Source: Pontederia crassipes
Taxonomy: Eukaryota; Streptophyta; Magnoliopsida; Commelinales; Pontederiaceae
Assembly (NCBI GenBank): GCA_030549335.1
Contig: CM060188.1
Coordinates: 11,842,001-11,906,000, forward strand
DNA length: 64,000 nt
Reading direction: 5' to 3'
In this document: positions 1,412 through 46,240 of the stretch, one piece after another
How positions within the stretch are numbered: the stretch's first letter is position 1
Layout of the letters: each line of letters starts with the position of its first letter
Notes under the pieces: model-generated
Told to the model about the DNA's origin: nothing
What the model saw: only the letters and a program-made list of their open reading frames with translations
The model's database searches: none
Position numbers and translations under genes: made by a program

Positions 1412-3793
1412 ATGAACAGCACTCCTCTTGTCATGTTCTGTCTTATTAATTTCCTGTCTCTTCTCCTTCCTGCGTCAGTAGCATCTGAGAGTTTTCTCTC
1501 TACGGGATATTCACTATTTGCAGAGAAAGAATCGCAGGTTGTGGTATTGTCAAATGGTTCTTATGCTTGTGGATTCTACCTGGTGGGCACAAATGCATAT
1601 GTATTCTCCATCTGGGTCTCAAACTCCATTGAGAAAACAGTTGTGTGGAGTGCAAATCGAGATCAGCCCATCAATGGCCATGGTTCAAGAATTACCGTGC
1701 GAGAGGATGGAGGCTTGGTGCTGACAGATGCCAACGGCATGGTGGTCTGGAGCACCAACACAAAGGATACACAGGTGGAACAGGTCGAGCTTCTTGACAC
1801 AGGAAACCTGGTGGTGAAGGATACCAGAGGTAATATTATTTGGCAAAGCTTCGATTATCCTACTGATACCCTTCTTGCATTACAACCGATGACAAAAACA
1901 ACTAAGTTGGTATCTGCGGTTGATAATGGGTCACTATCTTCAGGGTTCTTTAGCTTCTATTTCGACAACGATAATGTGTTGAAGCTCATTTATAACGAGA
2001 CCTCAAGTATATACTGGCCTAATAACTATTATTCCTTGAAGCAAAATCTTAGGAACAGCTATAACAGTTCAAGGTTTGCAATTTTGGATACCATGGGACA
2101 GTTTGTGTCAAGCGATAATTACACATTTGATGCTTGTGACATGGGCCATGGGATCTTGAGGAGGATGACCTTGGACCGCGATGGTAACCTTCGCTTGTAT
2201 AGTCTGAATGACACCTCAGGAACGTGGTCAGTTACATGGGAAGCGATTCGACAGCTCTGCCATGTGCATGGCCTGTGCGGCAGGAATGGGATTTGTTCGT
2301 ATTCGCCGCAGTCGCAACCCTCCTGTTCATGTCCTCCGTACTATGAGATGCGAAAGCCAGGTGACTGGAGCAAGGGATGTGAGCCCAAATTTAACTTCTC
2401 AGGTGATAAAGATGATTTCGACTTCTATGAACTGCGGCACACTTTGTATTGGAGCAACGATCGTTCTTCCCCTGCCCCGGTATCAGTGGAGACATGTAAA
2501 CAGATATGCCTAGATGACGCCTTTTGTGTGGGTTTACTGTACAGGCCTGGCGTAGGGGAGTGCTATATTAAAGGTGACCTATATAGTGGGGCGTCATCTC
2601 CATGGTACACAGCAAGGATGTATTTAAAAGTTCCTAAGAATGCAGCCACTGAGGTGGCTCTCTCTGCCTCACGCGATAATACATGCAACATTAGCGAGGA
2701 AGCAGCCGTGTCTTCTGATGTGTACAAGAGAAATAGAGGAAGTAGAGTTAATTGGAGCTACTTTTATTCGTTTGTGTTAGCACTTGGTGCCATTGAAATG
2801 TTGTTCCTAGTTGCTGGATGGTGGTTTATCTCAAGAGTAGGTCACAAGCCAACTTCAGTAGGAGAAGGGCATGGCGTGACACTCGGTCAAATCAAGAAAT
2901 TCACGTACAAGGAGCTGAAGAAAGCAACTGGAAACTTCAAGCATGAACTTGGCCGGGGAGCTTCTGGAGCTGCTTTCAAGGGTTCCTTGGATGATGAGAG
3001 AGTGGTGGCAGTGAAAAAGCTGGAGGACATGTCTCAAGGGGAAGAAGAATTCCAAGCCGAGCTGAACTTAATAGGCAGGATAAACCATATGAACTTAGTG
3101 AGAATGTTTGGGTTCTGTGCAGAAGGAAAGCACAGGCTTTTGGTGGCAGAGTACGTGGCAAATGGTGCGTTAAACAAGCACCTCTTTGATGACCATAACA
3201 CAGGCAGCATACTTGGATGGAAGGAGAGGTATAAAATTGCGACAGGGGTGGCAAAAGGCTTGGCTTATCTTCATCATGAATGCCTCGAATGGGTGATTCA
3301 CTGTGACATCAAGCCTGAAAACATCCTCTTGGATTCAGATTTCGAGCCTAAGATTGCAGACTTTGGATTGGCGAAACTGACTAAAAGGGGTGCAGTTGAT
3401 TGGAAATTTTCACACATTCGAGGAACAAGGGGATATATGGCACCTGAGTGGACTTCAAATTTGCCAATAACCTCGAAAGTTGATGTCTACAGCTATGGAG
3501 TGGTGCTTCTGGAGTTGGTCATAGGGTGCAGGATCTCCAGGTTGATGTTTGATGAGGAAGGAAGCAAATTCAATATGGATCTGATTAGCCTAATGAGGTC
3601 AATGAAGATGAAACTGGCCACTGAAGACAAGTCATGGATTGGAGGTTTTGTTGATATTAAATTGAATGGGCAATTCAACATCAGGCAGGCAGAGGTCATG
3701 TTGGAGACATCTATTTCTTGCTTGGAAGTAGAAAGGAGCCAAAGGCCAACAATGGATCTTGTAGTCCAGACACTACTTTCTGTTGATGAATAG
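1412..3793 (+). CDS. G-type lectin receptor-like Ser/Thr kinase, ZmPK1-type (RLK1), intact
   Basis: Single-exon 793-residue receptor kinase. The ATG at 1412 is chosen because a hydrophobic signal peptide (about residues 1-26) follows at once and the paralogue starts at the same place; the open frame continues upstream only without an ATG. Order: B-lectin domain (about 27-157), S-locus glycoprotein-like part, Cys-rich EGF-like stretch (about 286-320), PAN/apple region (about 355-390), one transmembrane helix (about 448-474), kinase (about 505-785). Kinase marks seen: Gly-rich loop GRGASGAAFKG, VAVKK lysine (about K535), HCDIKPENIL with the catalytic Asp near 632, DFG near 650 and GTRGYMAPEW. 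HCD in place of HRD makes it a non-RD kinase, a class often tied to innate immunity (family knowledge). Ligand unknown. Plasma-membrane location is inferred from the signal peptide and helix. Confidence 0.95.
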   Translation: MNSTPLVMFCLINFLSLLLPASVASESFLSTGYSLFAEKESQVVVLSNGSYACGFYLVGTNAYVFSIWVSNSIEKTVVWSANRDQPINGHGSRITVREDGGLVLTDANGMVVWSTNTKDTQVEQVELLDTGNLVVKDTRGNIIWQSFDYPTDTLLALQPMTKTTKLVSAVDNGSLSSGFFSFYFDNDNVLKLIYNETSSIYWPNNYYSLKQNLRNSYNSSRFAILDTMGQFVSSDNYTFDACDMGHGILRRMTLDRDGNLRLYSLNDTSGTWSVTWEAIRQLCHVHGLCGRNGICSYSPQSQPSCSCPPYYEMRKPGDWSKGCEPKFNFSGDKDDFDFYELRHTLYWSNDRSSPAPVSVETCKQICLDDAFCVGLLYRPGVGECYIKGDLYSGASSPWYTARMYLKVPKNAATEVALSASRDNTCNISEEAAVSSDVYKRNRGSRVNWSYFYSFVLALGAIEMLFLVAGWWFISRVGHKPTSVGEGHGVTLGQIKKFTYKELKKATGNFKHELGRGASGAAFKGSLDDERVVAVKKLEDMSQGEEEFQAELNLIGRINHMNLVRMFGFCAEGKHRLLVAEYVANGALNKHLFDDHNTGSILGWKERYKIATGVAKGLAYLHHECLEWVIHCDIKPENILLDSDFEPKIADFGLAKLTKRGAVDWKFSHIRGTRGYMAPEWTSNLPITSKVDVYSYGVVLLELVIGCRISRLMFDEEGSKFNMDLISLMRSMKMKLATEDKSWIGGFVDIKLNGQFNIRQAEVMLETSISCLEVERSQRPTMDLVVQTLLSVDE

Positions 3794-5703: not shown

Positions 5704-5713
5704 TGGAATTCAT

Positions 5714-6194
<481 letters not shown>

Positions 6195-19110: not shown

Positions 19111-22100
19111 ATTTTCGGTGAGTGCACAACTCTATTCGTTTGTCATCTGGAGGTGTTCAGATTCGGCGTGAGAGTGTGTAGGATGTCGACGAACTGAGAA
19201 GGGACAAATAAAAGAAGATGAAGCAAGTTTAGAAAAAATAGATCGTCGAAATTTGTCTTAGCTCTGATGCTAATGAAATAATAGTTCAATGTTCTTGCAT
19301 ATGGAAGATCCCAAATTTTCATCTCCCGACTGAGATTATATAGGCGCTTTAACATCATCTTCGTTTGCCCTTCCGCCTGCGCCGAAAACATCATTTCATC
19401 CGCATCCTTCCACCGTCACACGTCACTGCCCTTAGGAAGCGGCCGCTCCTTGGACCGGAGGAACGCATCATCCGGCTTATTATAAAGGATGCTCATGATC
19501 TTATTATAAAGTTGTAAGTAAAACTATTTTTTGACTCCGCACTTCTTTAATATTCCTACTTAATTTATTTTCTTGTTTACTAAATTCACTGATTTTCCTT
19601 AAAAAATTCACTTACATCGTGCCTAATTTTTGAATTAATGTTTGGAGCACATTTTTTGTGATATCTTGGAGGTTTACTAGTGATGGGGATGGCCACCAAT
19701 TTTTATTTCTATTGAACGCGTGAAACACGTTGAGATCAAGTGTTCCTTTTTTATAATGCACGAAGGCATCATTTGTCACATTTATAAAAACAAACTGACG
19801 CTATAATCGTTGAAACTTCTTCCAACCAAAACTTGCTAATGGAAAAGAGTTTCCGTTGACCAGGGAAAAAAAAAAGATTCCTTCCCTTTTCACTCAAAGA
19901 AGGCAATGAATCTGTTCTCGTGAAGTATATATGTAAACATAGTAAGTCTCATTCTTTCCTCATGTACAAGGGATCCTAAAAATTTCTTGAGGTGTATTAG
20001 TCAATAATGCTGGTGGGTCTGATTAAAAAACATTTAACTTGTGTCACATTGATAAAATGTCTGAACGAAGTTTTAATTTTCTTCTGATAACAATCCATCG
20101 TCAAGACTAATTTGGTATTCGAATGTGAAATGAAAAAAGATAAACTTTATTCAAATTGGAGGTTCTAAAAGTTAAATCGAAACTACTAACTCTTATACGG
20201 TTGATTATGAGATACAATACACTTAACCAGCTTCCATAATCAAACTTGGTTGAAGCCTTAATTATAGCATCGCGATTCATATGTCGAGCTGCTTAATTCT
20301 ATTACTTAATTTTTTTTCCTTAATTTTGACCAATCAACATATTGACTTAGGTCAACAAAAAATTTGAATATAATAAACTTTATAATATACAAAAACTATC
20401 TATACAATATTCAATGAAATGTGAGTTATACACTTACAAATATACAAGTCGGAATCCAATTCAGATTCTTCGCAATTCTACTAGTCATGTTCGGGTTACA
20501 AAACTTGGGTCCCACGTCTTCAAACTCGTGTCGGGTTTTACGAACTCGAACAAGATTATTTCGAGCCCTACCCAAAGTTCAGTGAACCTGAGCTGAGGTC
20601 GGGTTTTGTAGGTCTTCATGATGTCACATTTTTGGCACAACTTTTCGACTCTATTTCAATATGATTAACTATCCAATTCTATTAGTGATTCATCCATTTT
20701 ATACTTCAAATGTAGGGCAAGAGCTTTGAGGGACTATATTGATAAAAATCATCAATATAAGGATCTCCTGTGTATCTCAAGTTGACTGAGATCCATATAT
20801 CAACTTTTTGCATGATCATTAAACTTTGATGGGTGATTCCTCTATGATGTCCTCTCGAAACCCGCACAAATCACCTCTAAGACGATATTGATGTTGGGGC
20901 TTTGAAACAATGTATCGATTGTTCATAGATGTGCCTCACTTCATGTGAACATAAGAGGAAAAATAGTGCTTGTGGTTTAGAAATTAAACTATTCCGGTGG
21001 GGGAGAATTCAATACATTTAGGATCCTATTTATAACTTTTTCGGCGGAGTTTCTCCCTCAAATTATGATTTAATTTTTATTTGTTGACTTAATTAGTCTC
21101 TCATAACAATTTTCTACAAATTAATTTTAAATTATCTTTAATCCTTCTCTTGGATTGAGGGTTATGGAGGGGTGGGGTGGAATATGGGGGAATGAAATTA
21201 GTTATATCATGTTTGGTTATATTTTTTATTTAAGTTAAGAGGGGTGGGGTGGAATAGCTAAGCCCTTTAAACATTACATTTTTCATTCTACCAAATTGGT
21301 GAAATGAGGAGGGATAGATTATTTTAGATCAAATTAACCTCTTTCCTTTTTTTTATTACCAAATTAAATTATTTTTCTTCTTACCAAATTAAACCACCTC
21401 TTTCAATCTCCTTTTCTCTCTCTCATTCGTTGATATATTATCTTTTTTCTAATATGAATACATATTTATCTATAATTTATTATTAAATAAAGCTTTTTAG
21501 TAAATATAAAATTTTATTCAAAATAAACATAAATATACTATTTAAAAATAATTTAATATTAATATAATATATTCAATCAGGTCGAGATATAAAATTCGGA
21601 TTCGGTCCCAACCCGGCCGGATTTCAAAGGAATAAGATCCGGTCCTGACCCAATTATCCATCGGGTCGAAAAAAATTTAAAAAATCTGAGCGGTGCGGAC
21701 GAGGGCGATCAGGTCGTCCCGATTCATGTTCACCCCTAATTAACGATTATAAATACTTTAAATATATAATGAAGGATAAAAATAACTTTTATACAAATAA
21801 AATATTCGTTACCCCACCCCACATTTTATATTATTTATTATCCAAACATGGACTTTCTAATGATACACCAAGCCATTCCATCCCATCACTCACCACACCA
21901 CACCACCTCACCACATTCCTCCATTAGTTATTTGCCAAAGAGACCCTTAACCTCAATCTCAATTAAATTTCATTTTTTTATCTCTTATCTCTAATTTATA
22001 ATTTCTCTCAATCAAACTTTACTCCTATTTTATCATTTTATTTCTTTTTTTCTCTAATTTTTATTATTTTTTTAAAAATTATAATAATTAATGGTTGAAA

Positions 22101-22317
22101 TATTCTAAGACATAAGACCCCCAAATCTTATCATAATTGCGAGCCTTATGTACATTAAACGTTTTTTCCATATTATAAGAAATAATTGGCTGCAGAGATC
22201 TGTACATATTATTAGAAATAGGTGGAATAAATTCCTCTGCTCCTTCCCCCAATCTCTTGCGATTCCTCAGAGTTGTTTGACAGTGCAACAAGTTTCTTTC
22301 CAGCAAAACATAGCAGC
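19111..22317. other. Intergenic DNA upstream of RLK2
   Basis: AT-rich with no supported gene. A minus-strand stretch near 19240-19350 has a CTATATAA motif followed by TAGCATCAGAGC, one base-pair class away from a copia primer site, so an LTR remnant is possible. Around 20440-20610 and 21580-21745 are GGGTT/CGGGTCC-rich words ending 'gttcacccct', resembling short DNA-transposon ends. Nothing else is recognised. Confidence 0.5.
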
Positions 22318-23778
22318 ATGAACAGCACTTCTCTTGCCATGCTCTGTCTTATTAATTTCCTACCTCTTCTCTTTTCTGCGTCAGTGAAATCTGAGAGTTT
22401 TCTCTCTACGGGATATTCACTATTTGCAGAGAGTAAATCGCAGGTTGTGGTATTATCAAATGGTTCTTATGCCTGTGGATTCTACATAGTGGGCACAAAT
22501 GCATATATATTCTCCATCTGGGTCTCAAACTCCATTGGAAAAACAATTGTGTGGAGCGCAAATCGAGACCAGCCCGTCAATGGTCATGGTTCAAGAATTG
22601 CCATGCTAGAGAATGGAGGCTTGGTGCTGACAGATGCCAACGGCATGGTGGTCTGGAGCACCAACACGAAGAATGCACAGGCGGACCAGGTGGGACTTCT
22701 TGACACAGGAAACCTGGTGGTGAAGGATACCAGAGGTAATATCATTTGGCAAAGCTTCGATTATCCTACTGATACCCTTCTTGCATCACAACCGATGACA
22801 AAAACAACTAAGTTGGTATCTGCGGTTGCTAATGGATCGCCAGCTTCAGGGTTCTTCATGTTTTATTTCTCTGATGATAATGCATTGAAGCTCATTTATA
22901 ATGAGACCTCAAGTATCTACTGGCCTAATAACTATTATTCCTTGTGGCAAAATCGTAGGAACAGCTATAACAGTTCAAGGTTTGCGATCTTAAATCCTAT
23001 GGGACAATTCACGTCAAGCGATAATTTGAAATTTGATGCTTGTGACATGGGTCATGGTATCCTGAGGAGAATAACCTTGGACCGCGATGGTAACCTTCGC
23101 TTGTATAGTTTAAATGACACCTCAGGAATGTGGTCAGTTACATGGGAAGCGATTCCGCAGCTCTGCGGTGTTCATGGACTGTGTGGCGAGAATGGAATTT
23201 GTTCATATTCTCCACAGTCGAAACCCTTCTGTTCATGTCCTCCTTACTATGATATGCGAAAGCTAGGTGACTGGAGCAAGGGATGCGAGCCCAAATTTAA
23301 CTTCTCAGGTGATAAAGATGATTTCGACTTCTATGAACTGCGGCACACTTTGTATTGGAGCAACGGTCGTTCTTCCCCTGCCCCGGTATCAGTGGAGACA
23401 TGTAAACAGATATGCCTAGATGACGCCTTGTGCGTGGGTTTAGTGTACAGGCCTGGCGTAGGAGAGTGCTATACTAGAAGTGACCTCTATAGTGGGGCGT
23501 CATCTCCATGGTACACAGCAAGGACATATTTAAAAGTTCCTAAGAATGCAGCCACTGAGGTGGCTCTCTCCGCGTCACGCAATAATACATGTAACATTAG
23601 CGAGGAAACAGCCGTGTCTTCTGATGTGTACAAGAGAAGTAGAGGAAATAGATTTAAATGGAGCTACTTCTATTCGTTCGCGTTAATGATGGGAAAATCC
23701 GAGAACAAGGAGAGAAGATCGCAGAGAGATTGCAGAAAAATAAAGGGGACACACGAAATTACTCAGGTTCACCCTTGA
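22318..23778 (+). CDS. Truncated RLK2 ectodomain ORF reading into the LTR
   Basis: From the native ATG the frame runs through the extracellular part and stops 92 bases inside the LTR at 23776-23778. The predicted product is 486 residues: signal peptide (about 1-26), B-lectin (about 27-157), SLG/EGF-like and PAN regions, the first eight or so residues of the helix, then about 30 polar residues from the LTR ending ITQVHP. Without a full membrane helix or kinase it would be secreted if stable. Whether a transcript ends here is unknown. The ordinary alternative is a dead pseudogene half. Confidence 0.6.
   Translation: MNSTSLAMLCLINFLPLLFSASVKSESFLSTGYSLFAESKSQVVVLSNGSYACGFYIVGTNAYIFSIWVSNSIGKTIVWSANRDQPVNGHGSRIAMLENGGLVLTDANGMVVWSTNTKNAQADQVGLLDTGNLVVKDTRGNIIWQSFDYPTDTLLASQPMTKTTKLVSAVANGSPASGFFMFYFSDDNALKLIYNETSSIYWPNNYYSLWQNRRNSYNSSRFAILNPMGQFTSSDNLKFDACDMGHGILRRITLDRDGNLRLYSLNDTSGMWSVTWEAIPQLCGVHGLCGENGICSYSPQSKPFCSCPPYYDMRKLGDWSKGCEPKFNFSGDKDDFDFYELRHTLYWSNGRSSPAPVSVETCKQICLDDALCVGLVYRPGVGECYTRSDLYSGASSPWYTARTYLKVPKNAATEVALSASRNNTCNISEETAVSSDVYKRSRGNRFKWSYFYSFALMMGKSENKERRSQRDCRKIKGTHEITQVHP
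23682..23686. other. Left target-site duplication of young copia
   Basis: GTTAA, repeated exactly at 28749-28753 on the other side of the element. Confidence 0.95.
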
Positions 23779-24165
23779 GATAAGGGCTACGTCCTGCAAA
23801 GAGATTCCACTATATCGTTTAGGTTTACAGCCGCCACACCAAATTACATCAGAAATTAGGCTATTAATAGCCTCTCCAAACCGGGTATATAACCCAAACA
23901 AACAGAGAAAAAACCTAATCCGAACCACACGGGCCGGCTAAACAAAAGCCCAAAACCCGTCTAGGTTTCGGGGGCGCTGCCCCCGAACCCCCGCCCGCTC
24001 ACCGGCGAGCGGGACCGCCGTCGGGGGGCGGGGCCCCCCGAACCCCCCCTTTCGTTCGTACGCCAGCAATACTGTTAATTGGGTAATACTTAGATTCCCC
24101 TAAGCTCACGTGGGCGAACCCGGTGTGAGAAACAAGGGGCCCTGAAGTATTCACCAACTCTAACA
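23687..24165 (-). repeat. 3' LTR of young copia element
   Basis: In element sense it runs TGTTAGAG...CCCATCA. A GC-rich stretch at about 23965-24055 forms strong inverted repeats (TTCGGGGGC with GCCCCCGAA), lying upstream of the LTR TATA in element sense, that is, in U3. Confidence 0.95.
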
Positions 24166-25630
24166 TTCTCCCACTTGGTGGATACTTCACACCAATGAGA
24201 GCCTTGCCAGCAACATTCTTCTTCAATCCGACAGCAGTAGAGCACCACTCAAACTTTACACCTGTAACTGCTTTAGTCAGAAAATCAGAACTATTCTCTG
24301 TTGTATCAACCTTTTCAAGCTGAACCTCTTTCTTTTCCACCTTTTCCCGAATAAAGTGGTATTGGATGTCAATATGCTTTGTGCGTGAGTGAAATGCGGG
24401 ATTCTTAGCTAACTGAATAGCACCTTGATTATCACATCTCACCTCTATAGCACCTTGCTCAAATCCGAGCTCCAAGCACAACCGTCGTAGCCATATGGCC
24501 TCTTTTGCAGCATGAGTAAGAGCCATATATTCTGCTTCTGTAGAAGAAAGTGCCACCACGCTTTGTCTCTTGCTCATCCAACTTAGTGCAGCCCCAAATA
24601 ATGTAAAAACATATCCGCTAGTGGACCGTCTACTATCAATGTCTCCACCCCAATCAGCATCTACATGGCCCACAATATCAAGCATCTTTCCTTTTTCCGC
24701 ACCTTCAAAGCACAAAGCAAAATCTGAAGTTCCACGAAGGTACCTGAAAACTCTCTTGATAGCATTCCAATGTTCCCTGCCTGGGTTAGACATATACCGA
24801 CTCAAGACTCCCACTGCTTGGGCTATATCTGGACGCGTGCAAACCATGGCGTACATCAAGCTGCCCACTGCACTTGCATATGGCACACGGTCCATCTCTT
24901 CGGCTTCTTCATCCGTCTTCGGGCATTGCTCTGCAGAAAGTTTGGTTCCTAGAGACATAGGAGTACCCACTGGCTTGCAGTCCGACATGTTAAATTTCTT
25001 CAACACTTCTTTTATGTACTTCTCCTGTCCTAGCCACAACTTTCTCTTCTGACGATCCCTTCTAATCTGCATACCCAAAATAAAATTCGCTGGTCCCAAG
25101 TCTTTCATCTCAAACTTCTTGGCCAACAAACCCTTCACTGAATTCACCATCTTCATACTGTTTCCAATCAGCAACATGTCATCCACATACAGTGTAAGAA
25201 TGACAAACTGATCTCCAACTCTCTTCACATAAACACAATGATCTGAATCTGAACGTACAAACTTGAGTTCGAGCATGTACGTATCAAACTTCTGGTACCA
25301 CATCCTTGGCGACTGCTTCAATCCATACAAAGACTTCTTCAATTTGCACACCAGCTTTTCTTTACCTTGAACTTCAAAGCCTTCTGGTTGCCTCATATAT
25401 ATCTCTTCCTCCAAGTCCCCATGAAGGAATGCCGTCTTCACATCCATCTGCTCTACCTCAAGATTATATGCTGCTGCCAGAGATAGAACAAATCTGATTG
25501 AAGTCATTTTCGCCACGGGAGAAAAAATCTCATCATAGTCGACTCCCTCAACCTGAGAGTACCCTTTAGCTACCAGCCTCGCCTTGTACTTCTCTACAGA
25601 CCCATCCGGTTTCAGCTTTCGTTTGAACAC
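23999..25630 (-). CDS. Copia pol C-terminal part: reverse transcriptase and RNase H
   Basis: Continues the polyprotein after the in-frame TGA, beginning VFKRKLKPDG without an ATG. RT marks: AKGYSQVEGVDYDEIFSPV, MDVKTAFLHGDLEEEIYM and the catalytic LYVDDMLL. RNase H marks: HVDADWGGD and SSTEAEYMALTHAAKEAIW. All expected catalytic residues are visible. The frame runs through the polypurine tract and about 55 codons into the 3' LTR before stopping. Synthesises element cDNA in virus-like particles (family knowledge). Translation would need read-through of the TGA or initiation elsewhere. Confidence 0.93.
   Translation of the reverse strand: MFKRKLKPDGSVEKYKARLVAKGYSQVEGVDYDEIFSPVAKMTSIRFVLSLAAAYNLEVEQMDVKTAFLHGDLEEEIYMRQPEGFEVQGKEKLVCKLKKSLYGLKQSPRMWYQKFDTYMLELKFVRSDSDHCVYVKRVGDQFVILTLYVDDMLLIGNSMKMVNSVKGLLAKKFEMKDLGPANFILGMQIRRDRQKRKLWLGQEKYIKEVLKKFNMSDCKPVGTPMSLGTKLSAEQCPKTDEEAEEMDRVPYASAVGSLMYAMVCTRPDIAQAVGVLSRYMSNPGREHWNAIKRVFRYLRGTSDFALCFEGAEKGKMLDIVGHVDADWGGDIDSRRSTSGYVFTLFGAALSWMSKRQSVVALSSTEAEYMALTHAAKEAIWLRRLCLELGFEQGAIEVRCDNQGAIQLAKNPAFHSRTKHIDIQYHFIREKVEKKEVQLEKVDTTENSSDFLTKAVTGVKFEWCSTAVGLKKNVAGKALIGVKYPPSGRMLELVNTSGPLVSHTGFAHVSLGESKYYPINSIAGVRTKGGVRGAPPPDGGPARR
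24166..24178 (-). other. Polypurine tract of young copia
   Basis: The minus strand reads CCAAGTGGGAGAA immediately before the 3' LTR, the usual copia plus-strand primer. Confidence 0.88.
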
Positions 25631-25633
25631 TCA
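25631..25633 (-). other. In-frame TGA splitting the copia polyprotein
   Basis: The reading is AIGCK-stop-VFKRK, where related copia elements have a tryptophan (CKWVFK). One TGG to TGA change accounts for it. The following codon is GTG. It is the only in-frame stop in about 1,400 codons. Confidence 0.9.
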
Positions 25634-28222
25634 TTTGCAACCAATTGCCTTTCTATCCTTAGGCAATTTACACAAACTCCATGTTTCATTCTTATCCAGT
25701 GACTGCATCTCATCTGCCATAGCAAGCTCCCACTGATTTGCATCATCCATAGACCTTGCATCTTTTACAGAACTAGGTTCTTCGCCGATGATGCTCAAAG
25801 CATGAAACGAACTCAGAGCACTAAGAGAGTATCTCAAAGGTGCTCTTCTTTCTCGTGTCGATCTCCTGAGAACTGGAATGGTAGTACCAATATCTGGGTC
25901 TTCATCTGAATCTGCATCTTCAACTTCATTAACCGAGTCCTCTTGATCCGGTTCTATAACAGACTCAACTGAAGTATCTTGTGCATCCACCTCTGAAGTT
26001 TCAGAATCAGAATCTTCTTCAAGCACTACCACTTTCTTAGGTTCATCACATTTTTGAACTTCAACTTGGGAACGTGATTCACGGAAAACAACATCCCTGC
26101 TGTAAACAATAGTCCTTGACTTTGGATTCCACAGTTTGTAGCCCTTGATCCCGTCCTTGTATCCGACAAATATGTTCTTTTCAGATTTACTATCAAGCTT
26201 ACCCCGCTTTTCCTTGGGTATATGAACATATGCGTCACATCCGAACACCCGAACATGAGACAAATTTGGCTTCTTCCCAAACATTGCCTCATAAGGTGTC
26301 TGATCCTTCACTGATGAGGTCGGTGAGCGATTCTTCAGGTAGTTTGCTGTGGCTACAGCTTCTGCCCAGAATTCTTGCCCCAATTCAGCCCAACTCAGCA
26401 TACATCTGACCTTCTCTATGAGTGACCGATTTAACCTTTCAGCTACTCCATTCTGCTCAGGTGTATATGGAGTTGTCTTCTGCCTAGCAATACCATTGTC
26501 CACGCAGAACTGCTCAAACTTATCTGAACAAAATTCACCTCCATTATCTGTACGAAGAACCTTGATCTTGCAGCTCAATTGATTTTCCACCAAAACTTTA
26601 AATTCTCGAAACTTATCGAATACATCTGATTTATTCTTGATAAAATAAATCCAACTGTATCTCGAAAAATCATCTATAAAAGAAACATAGTACCTGGACC
26701 CTCCAATAGATGGAGTCGGAGTTGGTCCAAAGACATCACTATGAATCAGTTCGAGAATTTTCGTTGCTCTTGAACCTGTGTGTTGAAAACTGACTCGGTT
26801 CTGTTTTCCATGGAGGCAATGTTCACAGAACCCGAAGCCCACAGAACAATCCGGAACTCCTTCTACCATCTGACTTGATGCTATAGTGGAGAGTCCTTTT
26901 TCACTGATATGGCCTAATCTCCGATGCCACAACATAGATTTGCTGTCTTCATCTTCTTTGGCCTCTTCAGAAATAAATCCACAGCCCATAGATATTGTCT
27001 CTCCGAGCAACTTGTACAACGTGCCATAGCGAACTCCTCGTGCAATTACAATCGACCCTCTGATCATCTTGCACGAATCCTTATCGCAACTGAATATAAC
27101 ACCCGAGTCGGCCATTGTACCAACAGATAATAAACTCCTACTCATAAGTGGTATATGCATCACATCTGGTAGAGTCTTCACCGTGCCATCATTCATCCTC
27201 AACTTCACCCTGCCACGTCCAACAATCTGAACTGCAGTGTCATCTCCGAGCATGACATCCCCACCATTATACTCCTCATATTCACAGAACCAGTGTTTAT
27301 GAGGCGTCATGTGGTACGAAGCACCAGTGTCGATAAGCCATACATCTTTATCTGACTGTGCCATACATGCAGAAGCCACATACATATCTCCTGCCTCAGC
27401 CTCCTTTTTGTCCGAGGTTGAATCAGCTTCTTTCTTATGAACCGGCTTGTTTTTGCAATCTCGCTTCAGATGGCCCCACTCTTGACATCTCCAGCATTGC
27501 ACCTTCTTATCCTTACTCTTCGAACGCCCACGAGATTTGGATCTCCCTCTCTGATTTTGATTCCTTTCTGGTTGCCTTCCTCTGGCCGCCAGCGCCTCTT
27601 TACCAGAACTTGCTGATCCCTTTCTCCGTATTTCCTCTGATAACAAGGCAGCACATACACTTTCATACGAAAGTTCTTTATCCCCGCCACCAATCACAAC
27701 AATCAGATTGTCCCATGAATCCGGCAGCGAACAGAGCAATGTTATTGCCTTATCATCATCTTGAAACTTAACACCGATTGATACAAGTTGACTGATCACC
27801 GTGTTAAAGTTATAAAGATGGGTAGAAAACGAGTCACCCTCCTGCATCCGAAGATTGTACAATTTCTTTCTCAGAAATAACTTGTTAACCAACGACTTAC
27901 TTTGATATAGGGATTCCAACTTCCTCCACAGATCTCTGGCAGTAGGTTCGCCCATCACATTCGTAAGAATTGAATCCGCGAGACACAGCCGAATCAAACC
28001 CTTCGCCTTTCTATCAATCCGATCCCACTCTTCGATCGCCTTTGGATCTGCCTGACTGGAGGAGGCCTCGTCCGCGACCTTCGCCGCCTCCATGCCTGGT
28101 CTCTCCTTCTCGATTGCCGTCCAAAGATCTCGATCACAGAGAAGATCCTCCATCTTCATCTTCCAGAGATCAAATCGCGTTCCATCAAATTTTTCTATCT
28201 CAATCCGCGATCCTCCTGACAT
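25631..28222 (-). CDS. Copia gag-protease-integrase part of polyprotein
   Basis: 863 residues from the ATG at 28222, 34 bases after the primer site. Order: gag with UBN2-like start (EKFDGTRFDLWKMKMEDLL), zinc knuckle CWRCQEWGHLKRDC (about 250-265), protease LIDTGASYHM (about 305), GAG-pre-integrase WHRRLGHISEKG (about 430), integrase core with HSDVFGP, TDNGGEF and PYTPEQNGVAE, then a serine/acid-rich spacer and the start of RT (SLDKNETWSLCKLP). Catalytic motifs are intact. Packages element RNA and integrates cDNA (family knowledge). The frame ends at the TGA at 25631. Confidence 0.95.
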   Translation of the reverse strand: MSGGSRIEIEKFDGTRFDLWKMKMEDLLCDRDLWTAIEKERPGMEAAKVADEASSSQADPKAIEEWDRIDRKAKGLIRLCLADSILTNVMGEPTARDLWRKLESLYQSKSLVNKLFLRKKLYNLRMQEGDSFSTHLYNFNTVISQLVSIGVKFQDDDKAITLLCSLPDSWDNLIVVIGGGDKELSYESVCAALLSEEIRRKGSASSGKEALAARGRQPERNQNQRGRSKSRGRSKSKDKKVQCWRCQEWGHLKRDCKNKPVHKKEADSTSDKKEAEAGDMYVASACMAQSDKDVWLIDTGASYHMTPHKHWFCEYEEYNGGDVMLGDDTAVQIVGRGRVKLRMNDGTVKTLPDVMHIPLMSRSLLSVGTMADSGVIFSCDKDSCKMIRGSIVIARGVRYGTLYKLLGETISMGCGFISEEAKEDEDSKSMLWHRRLGHISEKGLSTIASSQMVEGVPDCSVGFGFCEHCLHGKQNRVSFQHTGSRATKILELIHSDVFGPTPTPSIGGSRYYVSFIDDFSRYSWIYFIKNKSDVFDKFREFKVLVENQLSCKIKVLRTDNGGEFCSDKFEQFCVDNGIARQKTTPYTPEQNGVAERLNRSLIEKVRCMLSWAELGQEFWAEAVATANYLKNRSPTSSVKDQTPYEAMFGKKPNLSHVRVFGCDAYVHIPKEKRGKLDSKSEKNIFVGYKDGIKGYKLWNPKSRTIVYSRDVVFRESRSQVEVQKCDEPKKVVVLEEDSDSETSEVDAQDTSVESVIEPDQEDSVNEVEDADSDEDPDIGTTIPVLRRSTRERRAPLRYSLSALSSFHALSIIGEEPSSVKDARSMDDANQWELAMADEMQSLDKNETWSLCKLPKDRKAIGCK

Positions 28223-28255
28223 CTCGAATAAACCCTAATTCCTCGAACAACCTGT

Positions 28256-28267
28256 GCTCTGATACCA
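28256..28267 (-). other. Primer-binding site of young copia (tRNA-iMet)
   Basis: The minus strand reads TGGTATCAGAGC, two bases from the end of the 5' LTR; a perfect canonical site. Confidence 0.95.
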
Positions 28268-28269
28268 AT

Positions 28270-28748
28270 TGATGGGAAAATCCGAGAACAAGGAGAGAAG
28301 ATCGCAGAGAGATTGCAGAAAAATAAAGGGGACACACGAAATTACCCAGGTTCACCCTTGAGATAAGGGCTACGTCCTGCAAAGAGATTCCACTATATCG
28401 TTTAGGTTTACAGCCGCCACACCAAATTACATCAGAAATTAGGCTATTAATAGCCTCTCCAAACCGGGTATATAACCCAAACAAACAGAGAAAAAACCTA
28501 ATCCGAACCACACGGGCCGGCTAAACAAAAGCCCAAAACCCGTCTAGGTTTCGGGGGCGCTGCCCCCGAACCCCCGCCCGCTCACCGGCGAGCGGGACCG
28601 CCGTCGGGGGGCGGGGCCCCCCGAACCCCCCCTTTCGTTCGTACGCCAGCAATACTGTTAATTGGGTAATACTCAGATTCCCCTAAGCTCACGTGGGCGA
28701 ACCCGGTGTGAGAAACAAGGGGCCCTGAAGTATTCACCAACTCTAACA
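28270..28748 (-). repeat. 5' LTR of young copia element
   Basis: 479 bp, identical to 23687-24165 except at two positions. Ends TG...CA in element sense. Confidence 0.96.
28466..28478 (-). promoter_or_regulatory. TATA-like box of young copia LTR
   Basis: GGGTTATATACCC on the minus strand, AT core inside a GC-rich LTR. Same motif at about 23883-23895 in the 3' LTR. Transcription from it would run leftward, antisense to RLK2. Confidence 0.55.
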
Positions 28749-28770
28749 GTTAACACTAGGTGCCATCGAA

Positions 28771-29766
28771 ATGTTGTTCGTTCTCGCTGGATGGTGGTTT
28801 ATCTCAAGAGTAGGCCGTAAGTCAACTTCATTAGGCGACGGGCATGGCGTTATGGTCGGCCAAATCAAGAAGTTCACATACACGGAACTGAAGAAAGCAA
28901 CTGGAAACTTCAAGCATGAACTTGGCCGGGGCGCTTCTGGAGCTGCTTTCAAGGGTTCCTTGGATGATGGGAGAGCGGTGGCAGTGAAAAAGTTGGAGGA
29001 CATGTCACAAGGGGAAGAAGAATTCCAAGCCGAGCTGAACTTAATAGGCAGGATAAACCATATGAACTTAGTGAGAATGTTTGGGTTCTGTGCAGAAGGA
29101 AAGCACAGGCTTTTGGTGGCAGAGTACGTGGCAAATGGTGCGTTAAACAAGCATCTCTTTGATGACCATAACACAGGCAGCATACTTGGATGGAAGGAGA
29201 GGTATAAAATTGCGACAGGGGTGGCAAAAGGCTTGGCTTATCTTCATCATGAATGCCTAGAGTGGGTGATTCACTGTGACATCAAGCCTGAAAACATCCT
29301 CTTGGATTCAGATTTCGAGACCAAGATTGCAGACTTTGGATTGGCAAAACTGTCTAAAAGAGGTGCAGTTGATTGGAAATTTTCTCACATTCGGGGAACA
29401 AGGGGATATATGGCACCTGAGTGGAGTTCAAATGTGCCAATAACCTCGAAAGTTGATGTCTACAGCTATGGGGTAGTGCTTCTGGAGTTGGTCACAGGGT
29501 GCAGGACTTCCAGGTTGATGTTTGATGGGGAAGGAAGCAAATTTAATATGGATCTGATTAGCTTAATTAGGTCAATAAAGATGAAATTGGCCACTGAAGA
29601 CAAGTCATGGATTGGAAACTTTGTTGATGTTAAACTGAATGGGGAATTCAACATCAGGCAGGCAGAGGCCATGTTGGTGACATCTATTTCTTGCTTGGAA
29701 GTAGAAAGGAGCCAAAGGCCAACAATGGATCTTGTAGTCCAGAGACTGCTTTCCTTTGATGAATAG
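28771..29766 (+). CDS. RLK2 kinase half, possible N-truncated ORF
   Basis: From the first ATG after the element the frame encodes 331 residues: the end of the membrane helix (MLFVLAGWWFIS), a short juxtamembrane part and a complete kinase with GRGASGAAFKG, VAVKK, HCDIKPEN, DFG and APEW motifs. It would lack any ectodomain and signal peptide. No sense-strand promoter is apparent, since both LTRs point the other way, so expression is doubtful. It is best read as the stranded right half of RLK2. Confidence 0.6.
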   Translation: MLFVLAGWWFISRVGRKSTSLGDGHGVMVGQIKKFTYTELKKATGNFKHELGRGASGAAFKGSLDDGRAVAVKKLEDMSQGEEEFQAELNLIGRINHMNLVRMFGFCAEGKHRLLVAEYVANGALNKHLFDDHNTGSILGWKERYKIATGVAKGLAYLHHECLEWVIHCDIKPENILLDSDFETKIADFGLAKLSKRGAVDWKFSHIRGTRGYMAPEWSSNVPITSKVDVYSYGVVLLELVTGCRTSRLMFDGEGSKFNMDLISLIRSIKMKLATEDKSWIGNFVDVKLNGEFNIRQAEAMLVTSISCLEVERSQRPTMDLVVQRLLSFDE

Positions 29767-33705: not shown

Positions 33706-34905
33706 CGCCCTCCCAAGTAGGGGCGTTCCCGAAAATCCGACCCGACGGGTCGGGTCGGGTCGACCCGACCGACCTGATCATGACCCGACCAAGGGTCGGG
33801 TCGGAAAAATTCCAACCCGAACCCGACCCGATGATCCGATTTTTTTCTTTTTTTTAAATTATTTTTTAGTTAAATGTATAGTTTTATATTATTTAAAATC
33901 TAAAAAATGAAATAAATTATTTTAAATGTAGAAAGTATATAAATATTTAAAACAATATTTTGGTATTAAAAAATACTTTATTTTGTATTAAAAATAAAAT
34001 AATAAATACTTTTTATATTAAAAAATAAATTAAAAATTAAAAAAAAAAGAAAAAGGGTGGTCGGGTAACCCCGACCACCCCGACCACCCGACCCGACTCC
34101 TACTCCCAAGTTAAACTTGGGAAGACTGTCCTCCCAAGTTGTGTGATCTGTCCGATGGCTGATCAATGACTCTCGAAGAGGCGCAACTAGAGAACTCGGA
34201 CGAGTAGAAAACGATCGATCGATTCAGAAGACATGATCATCCAGCGAGCCGTTCGAACCGTTGTCTAGAGGAACTCTTCAGGCCTTTCGTCCCCAGAGTT
34301 GAGAAGCGGACGCCGGCACGGGGAGGGTCCAGTTGCGCTTCCTGTCGCTGCCCTCACCGCCACTTTCGCGGGCATAGTCATTGCCATGCCAATCAGTCAT
34401 CTCCCCTAGAGATGTCGACGATAGTTGAGATGGCGAAGCAAGGGATGCCTCACGCAAAAGCAGGTCAAGTGCAGCCAAGTTGACCTTGCCGTGTCCGAGC
34501 ATAACCATCCCATGTGCACCCACCGCAACTCCATCATCAGCATCACCCGCCAGTTCCCCCCTTGGTCCTCCTCCTAACACCGCCACCTCCACCTCCACCT
34601 CAACTAGTGAGGACTCTGGGACAACCCCACTTCCGCGCCCGACGGCAACCCCACTTCCATGGCCGCAAGCCTATCGTCGTCCACGAATCGATAATGAAGC
34701 TCGGGTGATGAGTTTGTTAGGGCAGGGGAGATCGAGTTCGCGAGAGAGGACATCTCACGGGTGAACCGCGCCATGAATCACTTGTAATCCAACGAACCGG
34801 CACCACGAACCATAATTTCCTTCATCATGGTCGATTCTCCATCAGATGGATGAGATAGCGGGAGGGCAATCCTCCCAAGTTAACTTGGGAGATGGGTGTT
34901 CCTGA
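33700..34905. mobile_element. TIR element carrying GC-rich sequence (Pack-MULE-like), with nested insertion
   Basis: Inverted ends: the left arm (CCCTCCCAAGT, resuming at 34112 as TAAACTTGGGAAGACTG, then GATCTGTCCGATGGCTGATC) pairs with the right arm (about 34830-34900). A perfect 20-bp palindrome, CTCCCAAGTTAACTTGGGAG, lies at 34872-34891. The interior (about 34270-34790) is GC-rich and could be captured host coding DNA, but no family was recognised. A separate 384-bp element is inserted in the left arm. Confidence 0.55.
33719..34102. mobile_element. 384-bp nested insertion with 9-bp target duplication
   Basis: Flanked by exact CTCCCAAGT copies at 33710-33718 and 34103-34111. It has GGGTCGGGTCGGGTCGACCC-type GC-rich ends and an AT-rich middle. 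The 9-bp duplication fits a MULE-type MITE. Removing it restores the host arm CTCCCAAGTTAAACTTGG. Confidence 0.75.
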
Positions 34906-35120
34906 TTTATTTTACTGGTTCGGTAACATTACATCTAATTATTGAAGCATTTTTTCTTTCTTCTTTTTAGTACTTCGAAAGTGATTATAATAAAATAAAT
35001 TTAAGCTTTCATTTATTATTCTGGAAAAATAAATTTGGAAGGTAAAATTTGACTGACAACAATAGTGGAAAATAATAAATTTTTAAAAAGGTAAATTAAC
35101 TGTTTATGTGGGCAAGAAAA
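34906..35120. other. Short AT-rich spacer
   Basis: Nothing recognised. Confidence 0.5.
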
Positions 35121-35770
35121 TTATTCTTCATTCTTTTATGTGTCCTAGAAAGCATTTTCTTCATTTCTCGAGAAAGATCAGTTTCTCCACTTACTTTTTG
35201 TTTTCTATCAAATGCAAATTTACTTTCCTTAGACATTTTAGTTTAAATAGGAGATTTGACCCCCTAATATTAATCTAAAACTAGTATATTACATGATATT
35301 TCTCGAATTTTTTTCTAAAACAGTTCATATAATATATATATTTATACATATGAAATGTGTATATCTTTAAGGCCAAAGAATCGTTTAGCACTTTTAAATT
35401 AAGCTAGAAATTAGTAAATTAAAATAAATTATATTTTTTTATTAGTTTATGACAATATGCTTGCTTCTTCTCAAATATTTTTTAGTTCCGTCCCTGATAA
35501 ATCATATACTCGATGTTAGTTGAGATAAAAATAAAAGCTAATCTAAATTTTATTTATAAACTTTTTTCAAAACAATCAAACTTTTCGTAATATTTAAAAT
35601 CATAAAATTTAAATCGGACCGGTAAATGAATTATAGGTTCACATTTCACAATACATTTTTCTTTCTCGTTTAAAAACTTGGGCAAGTGAAGGCCACGACT
35701 GGGCCGGGCTTGGACGATATTTGCACTACCTGGAACCAAACCTTCCATGAAAGATTAGGGGAGGGTAAAA
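35121..35770. repeat. Duplicated ~650-bp segment, copy 2, upstream of the RETICULATA homologue
   Basis: Direct-orientation partner of 30481-31130. It abuts the GC-rich leader region of the gene starting at 36244, so it occupies the position of that gene's proximal promoter. Confidence 0.75.
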
Positions 35771-36243
35771 TCGGCGTCACGATCGCGGTCTTCCCTTTTC
35801 CCACGCTTCTTCTCGCCTGTTCACTCCACTTCGCTCTATACGTTACGCCGCCTCCTCTCCCGGTCAAGTCCGCCCGCCATCCCTGCGCCTCTATTTGTGT
35901 CCGCCACGCCTCTTGGCGTCTGAGAGACTCGAAAGCGTACTCCGTCGGCGCGCGTCGCGGTCTCCTCTCGACCGGCGTAGTATTTCGCGGAGAAGCCTGC
36001 AGGCATCGCTCTGTTCCCCGCCCTTCGAACTTTGGATATTTATAAAAGTATGGTTCTTGGCCATTTGTCTTGCATTTACGAACGGCTTCCAGTGCGCGGT
36101 AGTCTTTTTAGGACCTATGTCACCAAAGCGGCATTTTTTTTTCTATTTTGTGCTTCTGTAATCTGACATCTGTCTGGACATGTTCTCTTAATAAATGTTA
36201 GGGCATTTAGGTTGATTCCAAGTAAATAGTACTTCGGAAGGAT
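35771..36243 (+). promoter_or_regulatory. Probable 5' leader region of the RETICULATA homologue
   Basis: A CT-rich, GC-rich block (35780-36030) with 'cttcccttttccc' words typical of plant 5' UTRs precedes a T-rich stretch and the ATG at 36244. A leader intron is possible (GT near 36050) but could not be fixed. Confidence 0.45.
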
Positions 36244-39200
36244 ATGACGTTTGCCTGTTCTAACTTTGGATTGCGCAATTCTTCATGCTTAATGGGCGAT
36301 GCTTTGCTTGGAACCAATGTGACGAGCTGGGGAAGCGCGCATGCGATTGTTGAGACGAAGGGTCTTAGATACCAACGAAATCTCACGCCTGGGCGTGCTA
36401 TATATGTGAACAATAGTATATTTTCTCTGTCTTTGAGGGTTGGCAAAAATGCTCATTGTTCAAAGAAGCTGCAATGTTATGCGGAGTTGAGTAGCGAATC
36501 ACACCCAAAGGCCGAAGTGGTATCTATTGAGAGTACGATCACTTTTCAGGGCGTTAGTGATGTTTCCGTAAAGGACTCTAGGACGGGGGACTCAGCTTAC
36601 CATGCTGAATTAGATAATGGAAATGGAGGTGCAAGGTTTCCTAATGACTCTGATGACAATGGAAAATTTCCACCTGGTGGTGGTGGCAATGAAGGCAACA
36701 ATGGAAATGACGGTGAGAACAATGAAGACAAGAAGGAAGAAGATGAGTTTGGACCAGTCTTAAAATTTGAGGAGGTGATGAGAGAGGTGGAAGCACGGGG
36801 AGCAAGTCTTCCTCCTGATATGTTGGAGGCTGCCAAGACTTTTGGAATCCAGAAGCTCCTACTGTATAGATATTTTGATTTGCAGGTATTGCTTCCTCTC
36901 TTGTTTTAGTTGGATTTTAGCTTCTTCCAAATACAGCACTTACCTTGTAAGCTGATAATGTGACCCTTGGATGAAAATTACTTTAGGCAACAGCTTGGCC
37001 TCTTGGTTTTGCCATCAGGTCATGTGGACTCCTTCGAAACAGGATGCTTGCTGATCCATCTTTCCTTTTTAAAATTGGCACTGAGGTCAGTTTTGTTTAA
37101 TCCATAATACCTTTAATTAGAAAGATATAATATTGACAGAATCTTTTTTTTGTAATCCAGATAATTATTGATTCTTGTTGTGCAACATTTGCTGAAGTTC
37201 AAAAGAGGGGCAAAGATTTCTGGTCAGAATTTGAGTTGTATGCTGCTGATCTTTTGGTAGGAGTGGTTGTCAATGTGGCCTTAGTGGGCATGCTAGCACC
37301 ATATGCGCGATTCGGACAACCATCTGCTTCGAAAGGTTTATTAGGGCGTCTTGCACATGCTTATGGAGCGCTTCCTAGCAGGTTTGTACATTTATCATCC
37401 TTTTAAAATAATAGAACAAGTCTAGTTCTCTTTATTATTGTCATTGATTACAAAGATTTTAGTTTAGGTTTATACAATTCATGAAAACAATCATTAATCA
37501 TGAATGTTGATAATGTTCCTGGAGTGCTATCTGTAATAATGTTCGTGTTTCTTAATTTCAATCCAAAAGAGTACAGTATTATATAGACACGGGACTGATA
37601 TATAATGTGGATGAAGTGCTAGTCATACCTTACTGCTGAAACATTAGGAATTATACTTTAGTGCTATTTTCTTGAGCAGCTGAAGATTTCTAGGCTTGTG
37701 ATATCATGTTAGTTTCAGTATATGCTTTAGTGTGCGCCCAAAGGCCTTATCTTGTGAAGAATGTTATAAAAATTTTCTGTCCAAGTTGATTGTTTGTAAT
37801 GTCCATTTTATCTGTTGAACCTGAGGCTGCATAGTTTTCCATTTTAGTTGTAGAAGTATTGGTTACTTCCTCTAAAAATAAGTATTGATTACTTCAAATG
37901 TGTGGTCTGACAACATGTGGCCTGATGGTCGTGAATGATTATATACTTGTGGTCCTATTTCTAACTTCTCAGTTTTCTTTAAATTCTAGTGTATTCGAAG
38001 CAGGAAGACCAGGCTGCAATTTTTCAGTCCAACAACGGATCTCAACATACTTTTACAAGGTATATGAATAAATCCGATGTTTTTCTTTTAACTCATGCAT
38101 TGTGATATTTTAAAAAAAATTATGCATTGTTACAACTAAGATTGTCATCAGAGTTTCCATTGTTTAATTTCTGGAAAGGAATTAATGACAGCAGTGGCCT
38201 ACTATTAGTTTCTGTGTCAGGAAAATTTACGGGCTCTATTTTACAGGGATTCTTATATGGTGTAGTTGGATTTGGATGCGGTCTCATAGGACAAGGCATT
38301 GCCAATATGATTATGACAGCAAAGAGGTTAGTTTTCTCTATTCCTTATCGTGACGCAAAACTTATGGATGCACTAGTTCTTTTTATATCTTTGTCTTTTT
38401 CTTTATGTTTTTTCTGCATCTGGGTCCAAGTTGATCAATTGAAGCCTCTGTATTGGAGTTCTGAAATGATTTTTTACTATATGTTTACACATGTTTAATC
38501 TAGTTTGGTATCCAATGTCTGATTCCTTGCTGCTCAGTTTATTGGGTGGAAGGTCTAGCTTTGACAAAATACATTGTCTGCCGCTAATTAGAAGTATTTA
38601 TGAAAGCCTTGTAGACATTTGGATTTTACTTGGTTTATCTAGATTACTGCTGCATTTTCATGTTTAGTCATCTTGTAATAGGTACTCATTATTCCTATGG
38701 AGAGTTACTCTCCTTATTCTTGCAGGAGTGTAAAGAAATCGGAGGAGGATATCCCAGTTCCGCCACTAATTAAGAGTGCAGCATTATGGGGTATGCCTTA
38801 GTCCGTCACATATTACTTTTTGAAAATCAGATATCATACATTCAGAATGCATCACAACGCTTTTGCTATGCTTTCCTACATTTCCTTGCATATTGAGATG
38901 TCCATGGTAATTTTTGTAGTCTTCAAGACTTGCATTAATGTTCAAACCCACGACGTAGTTGATGATTATTTATTTACATACATTGATCTTTTAGAGATTA
39001 GGTCCTTATATTATCTTATTTTTCCAGATAGTTGCCTTGAACTCTCTTTTTATTTATTGAGAAAGAGAGAGATTCAGAATTCTTACTATATAGTTCTATA
39101 ACTGAAATATTTTATGTAGTTATTATGTCAGGGCATCTTAAGATCCTATAGCTTAGTGTTCTGTGATTAATTTACTAGCTTGTTCTTCTAAAAAAAACTA

Positions 39201-39570
39201 GCTTGTTCAAAACTATCAATGTAGTTGATAGTTCATGAATGTTTCTTCAGTTGTTTGAATGTCAGGGGATATTAGCTTTCATTACATACTTTTGTACTCA
39301 TTACAAGTAAGAGAGATCCTTTATAGTACAACATATTCCTGAATTCGGCAGTCTAACAACTTGTTTACTATATCAGGAGTCTTCCTTGCTGTTTCCTCTA
39401 ATACTCGCTACCAAATAATAAATGGTCTGGAACGCCTGGTTGAGGGTTCACCTCTAGCAAGACGACTTCCACCTGTTGCGATGGCCTTCACAGTTGGGGT
39501 TCGTTTTGCAAACAATGTCTATGGCGGGATGCAATTTGTTGATTGGGCCAGGTGGAGCGGCTGCCAATGA
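36244..39570 (+). CDS. RE: RETICULATA / RETICULATA-RELATED chloroplast protein, seven coding exons
   Basis: Coding exons by GT-AG signals and reading phase: 36244-36885, 36987-37085, 37161-37381, 37990-38059, 38247-38326, 38726-38790, 39377-39570. Together 1,371 bases encode 456 residues with no stops. The N-terminus (about 1-75) looks like a plastid transit peptide. A Gly/Asn/Asp-rich acidic linker follows (about 125-165), then the conserved DUF3411 region from FGPVLKFEEVMREVEARGA to the C-terminal YGGMQFVDWARWSGCQ. Several hydrophobic stretches (LLVGVVVNVALVGMLAPY, GVVGFGCGLIGQGIANMIM) suggest inner-envelope membrane location. Arabidopsis RETICULATA (LCD1) mutants have reticulate, pale leaves with fewer mesophyll cells (family knowledge); biochemistry unknown. 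It matches RE better than the shorter RER3-RER6 types, but a co-orthologue such as RER1 is not excluded. Confidence 0.93.
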
Positions 39571-40256
39571 CGGTATGCATGTTTTTTCTACTCGGTACAT
39601 CACATATTTATCCTTTTGCTCATTTCTCGAGTGTCTGTTGTTTCAATATTGTTTTTCGAAGTTTTCAGGGACTAATCTCTGATGGTGGCAGCAGATCAAG
39701 CATTTGCCTGTGGATTGAGGACCTGATAATATTTTGCTCTTGCAATTTAAATGGAGATTCTTGTATCCTGATGCAAAGGCGTCATAAGTTGTATTCTATT
39801 GCTCTGTTGTTGTATCAGAGCATTCCTTCTACAATGGTCTTCGTTTTGTTTGCAAGATAGAGTAAAACATTTAGTTGCATTAAGGTAGAAACTAGTGACT
39901 GAACGCTGATATAATAAAAGATTCAACTGGCCTCAATCTTTTGCTTAGTTTTCTACTCGCTCTCCCTTTTATTTTTTTCTGCCTAATATATTCGTCTTAA
40001 TATCTTATTGCTTAGTTCAAAAAACTGCTTGAGAGCGTCATGGAGAATAGATAAATCATAATTTTAATAACATAAAAAATTATTTTCCTTTTTCCCTTGT
40101 ATGCATAGAGTACTCTACCAAGGACAAATAACAAGTATCTTTCGTTTATACAAATTGATAACATAATTAATTATGATTCATGCAGACGTGTGATCCGTTC
40201 GTAGCGGGTTCACTTCACTGGTTATTGATTCCATGCTCCAATTCCCGGCGAACCAA
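39571..40256 (+). other. 3' UTR of the RE homologue and intergenic spacer
   Basis: A possible 3'-UTR intron is visible (donor GTATGC at 39573, acceptor TTTTCAG near 39668). A poly(A) signal AATAAA lies at about 39913. Beyond about 39940 the sequence is AT-rich spacer up to the convergent lectin gene. Confidence 0.5.
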
Positions 40257-41069: not shown

Positions 41070-41666
41070 TGCACGCAACGTCGGGAAACAACGGAGCTGC
41101 TGCTGCTGCATGTACTTGGCCTCATGCACAACTTTAGCCTGCATTTATCGACAACTCGCTCTAATGCATTATGCATGCATAATTGTATTTGCATGGGATC
41201 TGGCAGCGTTTGCATCATCGCATGCACACATTTTAGTTGTTTTCGCGTAATAATTTTCACGTCCTGGCAAAACAGGGCACTCATAAGTGGTGCAGATCAT
41301 TGCCGAACCAAATTGGTTCGTCTGTGAACGATGGATAGATTGCACTATGGACCCTATAGGTTCGGGTGCGCTCAACTCGAGCCCTTCGGATGCTGCTCTT
41401 GTCCTTGGTCGTATGGTTTGTCGCGGGAGTAATCGACACTCAGAGCAAGCTGAATTATGACATGCCAATTTCAAGTGCAATTTGTTTTCGTCTCTCTCTC
41501 TCACGCACACTTCGTACTTCTCCTTCCAATTATTAGGGATATTACGAAGAATTCGACAACTTTGTGTAAAGTATATATATATATATATGCAGAGCAATAT
41601 GGGCCGTTCATTTTTATATCCATGGCTGGCGTGCGAGGTTGCTCTCTTTTCCTTTTGTAGGTTCTC

Positions 41667-46222: not shown

Positions 46223-46240
46223 TTCTCCCCCACCAAAGTC
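46223..46240 (-). other. Polypurine tract of LARD
   Basis: The minus strand reads TTTGGTGGGGGAGAA just before the LTR. Confidence 0.85.

Follow-up and report, generated by a model that had tools for sequence, protein, structure and literature searches.

In Brassica, a secreted S-domain ectodomain, the established secreted protein SLG, occurs beside the full receptor kinase SRK. In cucumber, the insertion of an LTR retrotransposon reportedly led to loss of function of CsGL3, a transcription factor whose phenotype is known (PMC4696102). As far as the available text of one Arabidopsis study reports, Ty1/copia elements favor exons of environment-responsive genes via H2A.Z, with recent copies of ATCOPIA93 and ATCOPIA78 found in the exons of such genes and away from essential ones (PMC6668482). 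For the OAK cluster, another tandem array in Arabidopsis, gene conversion is reported in the accessible part of the account, and the converted stretch is mostly the extracellular part (PMC3136440). Here, we describe RLK2 of Pontederia crassipes, which very probably is a G-type-lectin receptor-kinase gene of a tandem array, kept whole and constrained until a single Ty1/copia element arrived recently. The element is full length, with both of its LTRs, runs opposite to the gene, and splits it within codon 457. The event is of a known kind: pseudogenization by an LTR retrotransposon within a turnover-prone tandem array of receptor kinases.

The window, the whole stretch of 64,000 nucleotides that was analyzed, corresponds to C6:11842001-11906000 of a 1.13-Gb genome in 43 contigs. 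Its features are listed in Table 1. In RLK1 the domain order B_lectin, S_locus_glycop, predicted membrane helix, and kinase is found in a single protein, and in RLK2 it is distributed across two halves. The left half contains B_lectin (76-161) and S_locus_glycop (235-308) Pfam matches, three residues at the start of the predicted helix, and likely a signal peptide, while the right half contains the remaining helix, the juxtamembrane region, and a Pkinase match (profile positions 4-259 of 263) that keeps the G-loop, VAVK, HCDIKPEN, DFG, and APE motifs. The domain extents in the two halves are close to those in RLK1. With one GTTAA copy removed, the halves rejoin to 794 codons including the stop, with no internal stops, and the resulting protein of 793 aa aligns without gaps to RLK1. 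Codon 457 has one base to the left of the insert and two to the right. The best 21-residue hydropathy window begins at residue 454, so that codon 457 belongs to the predicted helix, close to its outer margin, and three residues stay on the left. The preliminary description had claimed that the halves sum to the RLK1 length, rejoin in frame at codon 457 after loss of one GTTAA copy, and are parted within the codons of the membrane helix, all of which our reconstruction reproduces.

Table 1. Features of RLK1, RLK2, and the inserted element (window positions; position 1 is the first letter of the window)
Feature	Position	Strand	Details
RLK1, intact tandem paralogue of RLK2	1412..3793	+	793 aa; coding 1412-3790 plus stop
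RLK2 left half	22318..23686	+	1,369 bp; codons 1-456 and base 1 of codon 457
Target-site duplication GTTAA, left copy	23682..23686		sequence
Ty1/copia LTR retrotransposon	23687..28748	-	5,062 bp; orientation opposite to RLK2; LTRs, Pfam
3' LTR	23687..24165	-	479 bp; has both derived G-to-A changes; LTR pair alignment
LTR-derived tail and stop closing the left-half frame	23687..23778	+	30 residues, 486 aa in total; reading frame alone
Element frame, part 2	24002..25630	-	543 aa; RVT_2 reverse transcriptase (Pfam)
In-frame TGA	25631..25633	-	just ahead of the reverse transcriptase match; sequence
Element frame, part 1	25634..28234	-	867 aa; gag, beta-barrel domain, GAG-pre-integrase, integrase core, SH3-like (Pfam)
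Primer-binding site	28256..28269	-	ATTGGTATCAGAGC; adjoins 5' LTR
5' LTR	28270..28748	-	479 bp; LTR pair alignment
Target-site duplication GTTAA, right copy	28749..28753		sequence
RLK2 right half	28754..29766	+	1,013 bp; bases 2-3 of codon 457 through the stop

By their predicted domains, RLK1 and RLK2 are G-type lectin (S-domain) receptor kinases of the ZmPK1-like class. Among the 120 homologues listed, relatives named ZmPK1 show 49-59% identity, and the best named relative of RLK1 stands at 59%. No Pfam match to a PAN domain was obtained in RLK1 at an E value of ≤0.001; PAN is not present in all ZmPK1-like members, and listed ZmPK1-named relatives (e.g., P0004 and P0006) are also without PAN-type accessions. 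Two further B-lectin frames are found near the lectin receptor kinases on the minus strand, at window positions 40260-41144 and 58831-59394, the latter below the Pfam cutoff. The best named relative of the former shows 55% identity, and six of its nine hits are named, all from monocots and mostly mannose-specific lectins.

The inserted element contains Retrotran_gag_2, gag_pre-integrs, and rve in the first part of its frame and RVT_2 in the second, with the integrase upstream of the reverse transcriptase, which assigns it to Ty1/copia. Its LTRs have TG...CA ends (TGATGGG...CTCTAACA at the element ends on the plus strand), and a primer-binding site, which we take to be of the initiator-Met tRNA type, a purine tract before the 3' LTR, and a 5-bp target duplication are all present. 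The unbroken gag-pol frame that characterizes an autonomous element is absent: given the in-frame TGA, this copy in its present state is unable to provide a full-length polyprotein of its own. The frame is uninterrupted in the one sibling element examined whole. Remains of a second copia-type element, with SH3-like and RVT_2 frames on the plus strand, are observed between RLK1 and RLK2 (window 8673-10118).

The two LTRs differ at 2 of 479 positions (two mismatches, no gaps), the count given previously. Substitution rates of 1.3e-8 and 6.5e-9 per site per year were assumed, and 2 differences over 2 x 479 sites then correspond to an insertion age of 161 kyr (19-580 kyr, Poisson) at the former rate and 321 kyr (39-1,159 kyr) at the latter. 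Both differences are G-to-A in the element sense, and a G is found at these sites in 20 of 20 and 19 of 20 other LTRs, the single exception being an old solo LTR in the family member C6_822; both changes thus most likely arose after insertion. A search for the copia family gave 2,976 first-look candidates, of which 40 were scored; 26 further LTRs, representing 25 separate insertions, were taken from the 40 best-scoring. Half of these 26 look solo, and 12 of those 13 carry an exact 5-bp duplication. Eight sibling LTR pairs, picked among the closest matches, show 0, 0, 0, 0, 3, 3, 4, and 5 mismatches, the last in a truncated pair compared over 300 bases only. These low counts indicate that the family moved recently.

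The receptor kinase family was collected in one DNA search with 601 bp of the RLK2 left half (23000-23600), which returned 15 matches including the probe itself. The close family comprises six members on C6 (11.77-11.87 Mb), two on C5, one on C2, and one on C1, and four more distant matches are located on C13-C16. Seven of the ten close members are broken, counting RLK2 and the C1 copy, and whole frames were found in three of eight loci tested (RLK1, C6_808, and C5b). The C1 copy is interrupted by 4.3 kb (L026 4571-8856) with an 83% match at window 45564-49896; this common sequence is perhaps a mobile element. In addition, a segment on C5 (57.300-57.3145 Mb; L017-L018) matches, in reversed orientation, window 34893-41564 and RLK1 at approximately 93-95%, along with short poorer pieces. 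It holds a frameshifted counterpart of RLK1 (C5a), and RLK2 is absent from the 30 kb examined there. In the ectodomain tree RLK1 and C5a group together with RLK2 outside (support, 92), and 30 sites favor this grouping versus 9 and 1 for the others. RLK2 therefore predates the duplication of the C5 segment, and its absence from C5 reflects either loss or exclusion from that duplication; we reject C5a as an empty RLK2 allele on the same grounds.

The kinase region tells a different story from the ectodomain. Sites for RLK1 plus C5a versus those for the other two groupings number 41:10 before the kinase and 2:11 within it (Fisher P = 2.5e-5, with sites assumed independent). The kinase parts of RLK1 and RLK2 (window 2932-3790 and 28905-29763) include an identical run of 146 bases, and the base of the kinase tree is poorly supported (42). 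We read this pattern as probable gene conversion among the kinase domains of RLK1, RLK2, and C5a.

Selection before the insertion was assessed with a codon likelihood model on RLK1, RLK2, C5a, C5b, and C6_808. The RLK2 branch has a whole-gene omega of 0.457 (versus 1, P = 5.6e-4), compared to 0.354 for the rest (difference, P = 0.29), and an ectodomain omega of 0.40 (versus 1, P = 0.0013). For the kinase, the RLK2 branch gives 0.545, 0.627, and 0.660 on three trees versus 0.22 elsewhere (P = 0.077, 0.040, and 0.028), values not separable from 1 (P = 0.22-0.40). Approximately seven stops are expected on the RLK2 branch without constraint, and no stop or frameshift is observed. Judged on 110 homologues, near-invariant residues are replaced at 4 of the 45 residues specific to RLK2. 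The corresponding counts are 6 of 14 for C5a, which is frameshifted, and 0 of 9 for RLK1, 2 of 12 for C6_808, and 1 of 12 for C5b, all three of which are intact. In our reading, RLK2 was maintained under purifying selection before the insertion, and its kinase shows slight signs of relaxation. The gene thus shows the marks of a recent pseudogene, namely, constraint before the lesion and one dominating lesion, less clearly so in the kinase half.

These results bear unevenly on the earlier account. A young insertion in a previously intact, constrained gene is borne out by the LTR pair and by the whole-gene and ectodomain omegas. The dN/dS comparison, proposed there as a check for relaxed constraint older than the element, finds purifying selection across the whole gene and the ectodomain and lends slight support to relaxation in the kinase. 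The statement that RLK2 has no other lesion stands for the coding sequence and fails for the 5' flank, which diverges from RLK1 about 35 bp before the ATG. We dropped the argument that it shows the break to be very fresh: since the insertion, a dead gene is expected to have gained approximately five neutral changes and 0.17 stops (probability of no stop, ~0.84), so that the absence of further postinsertion lesions is uninformative.

The flank also bears on the history of RLK2 before the insertion. RLK1 and C5a have approximately 400 bp of 5' flank in common at 89%, and partial homology to this flank extends to five other members (C5b, C6_808, C6_773, C6_791, and C1), whereas the RLK2 match ends at about -35, with window 21300-22283 beyond. 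The 4.3 kb upstream of RLK2 gave only short-repeat matches in the window and in ten 10-kb loci (L017-L026) at an E value of 1e-5. At this apparent breakpoint a duplication may have placed the gene behind new sequence, or an insertion may have occurred there, changing the promoter. Being unlike the flank of RLK1 and of the members that share it, the RLK2 flank suggests that the gene may have drifted or switched promoters before the element arrived. Taken further, RLK2 would already have been nonfunctional or drifting at the time of insertion, placed behind foreign sequence and with its kinase constraint lost, and the element would only have exposed that loss; the kinase omegas point the same way. 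We consider this unlikely, although it is the strongest of the alternatives. Loss of the flank is not peculiar to RLK2, as the match to the family flank is limited to 42 bases in C6_822 and none was obtained for the C2 copy. Decay before the insertion is also disfavored by the constrained ectodomain and by the lack of stops and frameshifts against the number expected, and the catalytic motifs are retained with few changes at invariant sites. In addition, an Arabidopsis OAK kinase is active despite a promoter made from a duplicated coding segment, according to the portion of that study available (PMC3136440).

Under our preferred reading, a constrained gene cut by the element, the full RLK2 receptor would no longer be produced. 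A sense transcript would enter the antisense LTR, where its reading frame closes 30 foreign residues later, and just three helix residues would be kept. Such a product opens a second alternative, gene fission, in which the left half would yield a 486-aa soluble protein, a lectin/S-locus-like ectodomain comparable to secreted S-locus glycoproteins, that may bind the ligand or act against RLK1. Both ectodomain domains survive the break, whereas the helix is reduced to three residues, and the LTR contains an AATAAA at 23739 in the RLK2 sense. However, this motif comes ahead of the stop gained at 23776-23778 and, given its A-rich surroundings, counts for little, and the insertion is so young that selection on a new soluble form is unreadable; we regard fission as quite improbable. 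An assembly artefact, with RLK2 whole and the element misplaced, is scarcely credible even for such a repetitive copia family, since a mis-join would not give complete element ends and an exact 5-bp duplication on both sides, and these, with the gap-free rejoining and the 99.6% LTR pair, lead us to reject a chance repeat or mis-join.

For the disrupted gene we see roughly even chances that the insertion remains polymorphic in the species. The insertion age allows segregation at an ordinary population size. The 601-bp probe found no second near-identical match in the one assembly, the next best being RLK1 at 92%; another haplotype, if any, thus lies outside the assembly as far as this search sees. 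RLK2 is a clean candidate for a natural knockout of a lectin receptor kinase with an intact sister, RLK1, nearby. If an intact RLK2 allele persists, the allele pair could test the role of the receptor without engineering.

RLK2 is not the only member of the family hit by this element family. We observe a solo LTR with 80% identity to the RLK2 element and the exact duplication AATGC in the coding sequence of C6_822 (L021 ~5574-6018), and another with 94% identity to that element and imperfect flanks (CTGCC/CTGTC) in the coding sequence of the C2 copy (L025 7209-7687). A 67% match to the element interior at L025 8670-9087 represents another, older copia-type sequence and was left out of the count. 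All three LTR-family events (E value, 1e-4) in the 164 kb around the family fall in receptor kinase coding sequence, which makes up 13.8% of the bases; the chance of this is approximately 0.003, a post hoc figure from stretches selected for receptor kinase genes. An LTR of the copia family was found at none of the four more distant receptor kinase genes. The RLK1 protein had no match at any of the 26 further LTR loci, from which flanks of 400 or 1,500 bp were taken, and 10 selected frames from 9 of these loci gave one Pfam match, a UDP-glycosyltransferase. At L015 488-1582, a young copy of the same family adjoins the frame concerned. Strong targeting of the receptor kinase family is therefore not established, the three-of-three count being post hoc and the extension to distant genes giving none of four.

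An exon preference guided by H2A.Z would explain repeated hits in receptor kinases, and the redundancy of the array would let them survive. For RLK2 itself, the preference of Ty1/copia for exons would have made a hit likely, and array redundancy would have allowed the insertion to persist. Extended to the whole subfamily, this suggests a rather improbable scenario in which the subfamily is mutated again and again by a single copia family, which would have struck coding sequence of three paralogues at three places and at three ages (99.6% between the LTRs of the RLK2 element, and 94% and 80% identity to that element for the C2 copy and C6_822), probably guided by chromatin, so that a still-moving element prunes the array and RLK2 is its newest and possibly segregating victim. 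The repeated hits by the same family are the best lead of this analysis and would provide a natural case, in a plant other than Arabidopsis, of a receptor gene cluster shaped by retrotransposons.

Compared with the systems described above, RLK2 resembles CsGL3 in having an LTR element inserted in the gene, but CsGL3 is tied to a known phenotype, whereas RLK2 is not known to have a phenotype or an empty allele. SLG is established as a secreted protein, whereas a soluble RLK2 product is a possibility raised by the reading frame. As with ATCOPIA93 and ATCOPIA78, a recent copia copy lies within an exon of an environment-responsive type of gene; in the Arabidopsis work, as far as its available text goes, new insertions were observed and accompanied by chromatin data, whereas RLK2 represents one natural insertion known from sequence alone (PMC6668482). 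Malectin-like and LRR regions characterize the OAK proteins, for which variation among accessions is described, in contrast to the B-lectin ectodomains and the single assembly considered here. Nonetheless, in the part of the OAK report available, that cluster resembles the present array in its tandem receptor kinases, gene conversion, duplication with a changed promoter, and truncated or missing members (PMC3136440).
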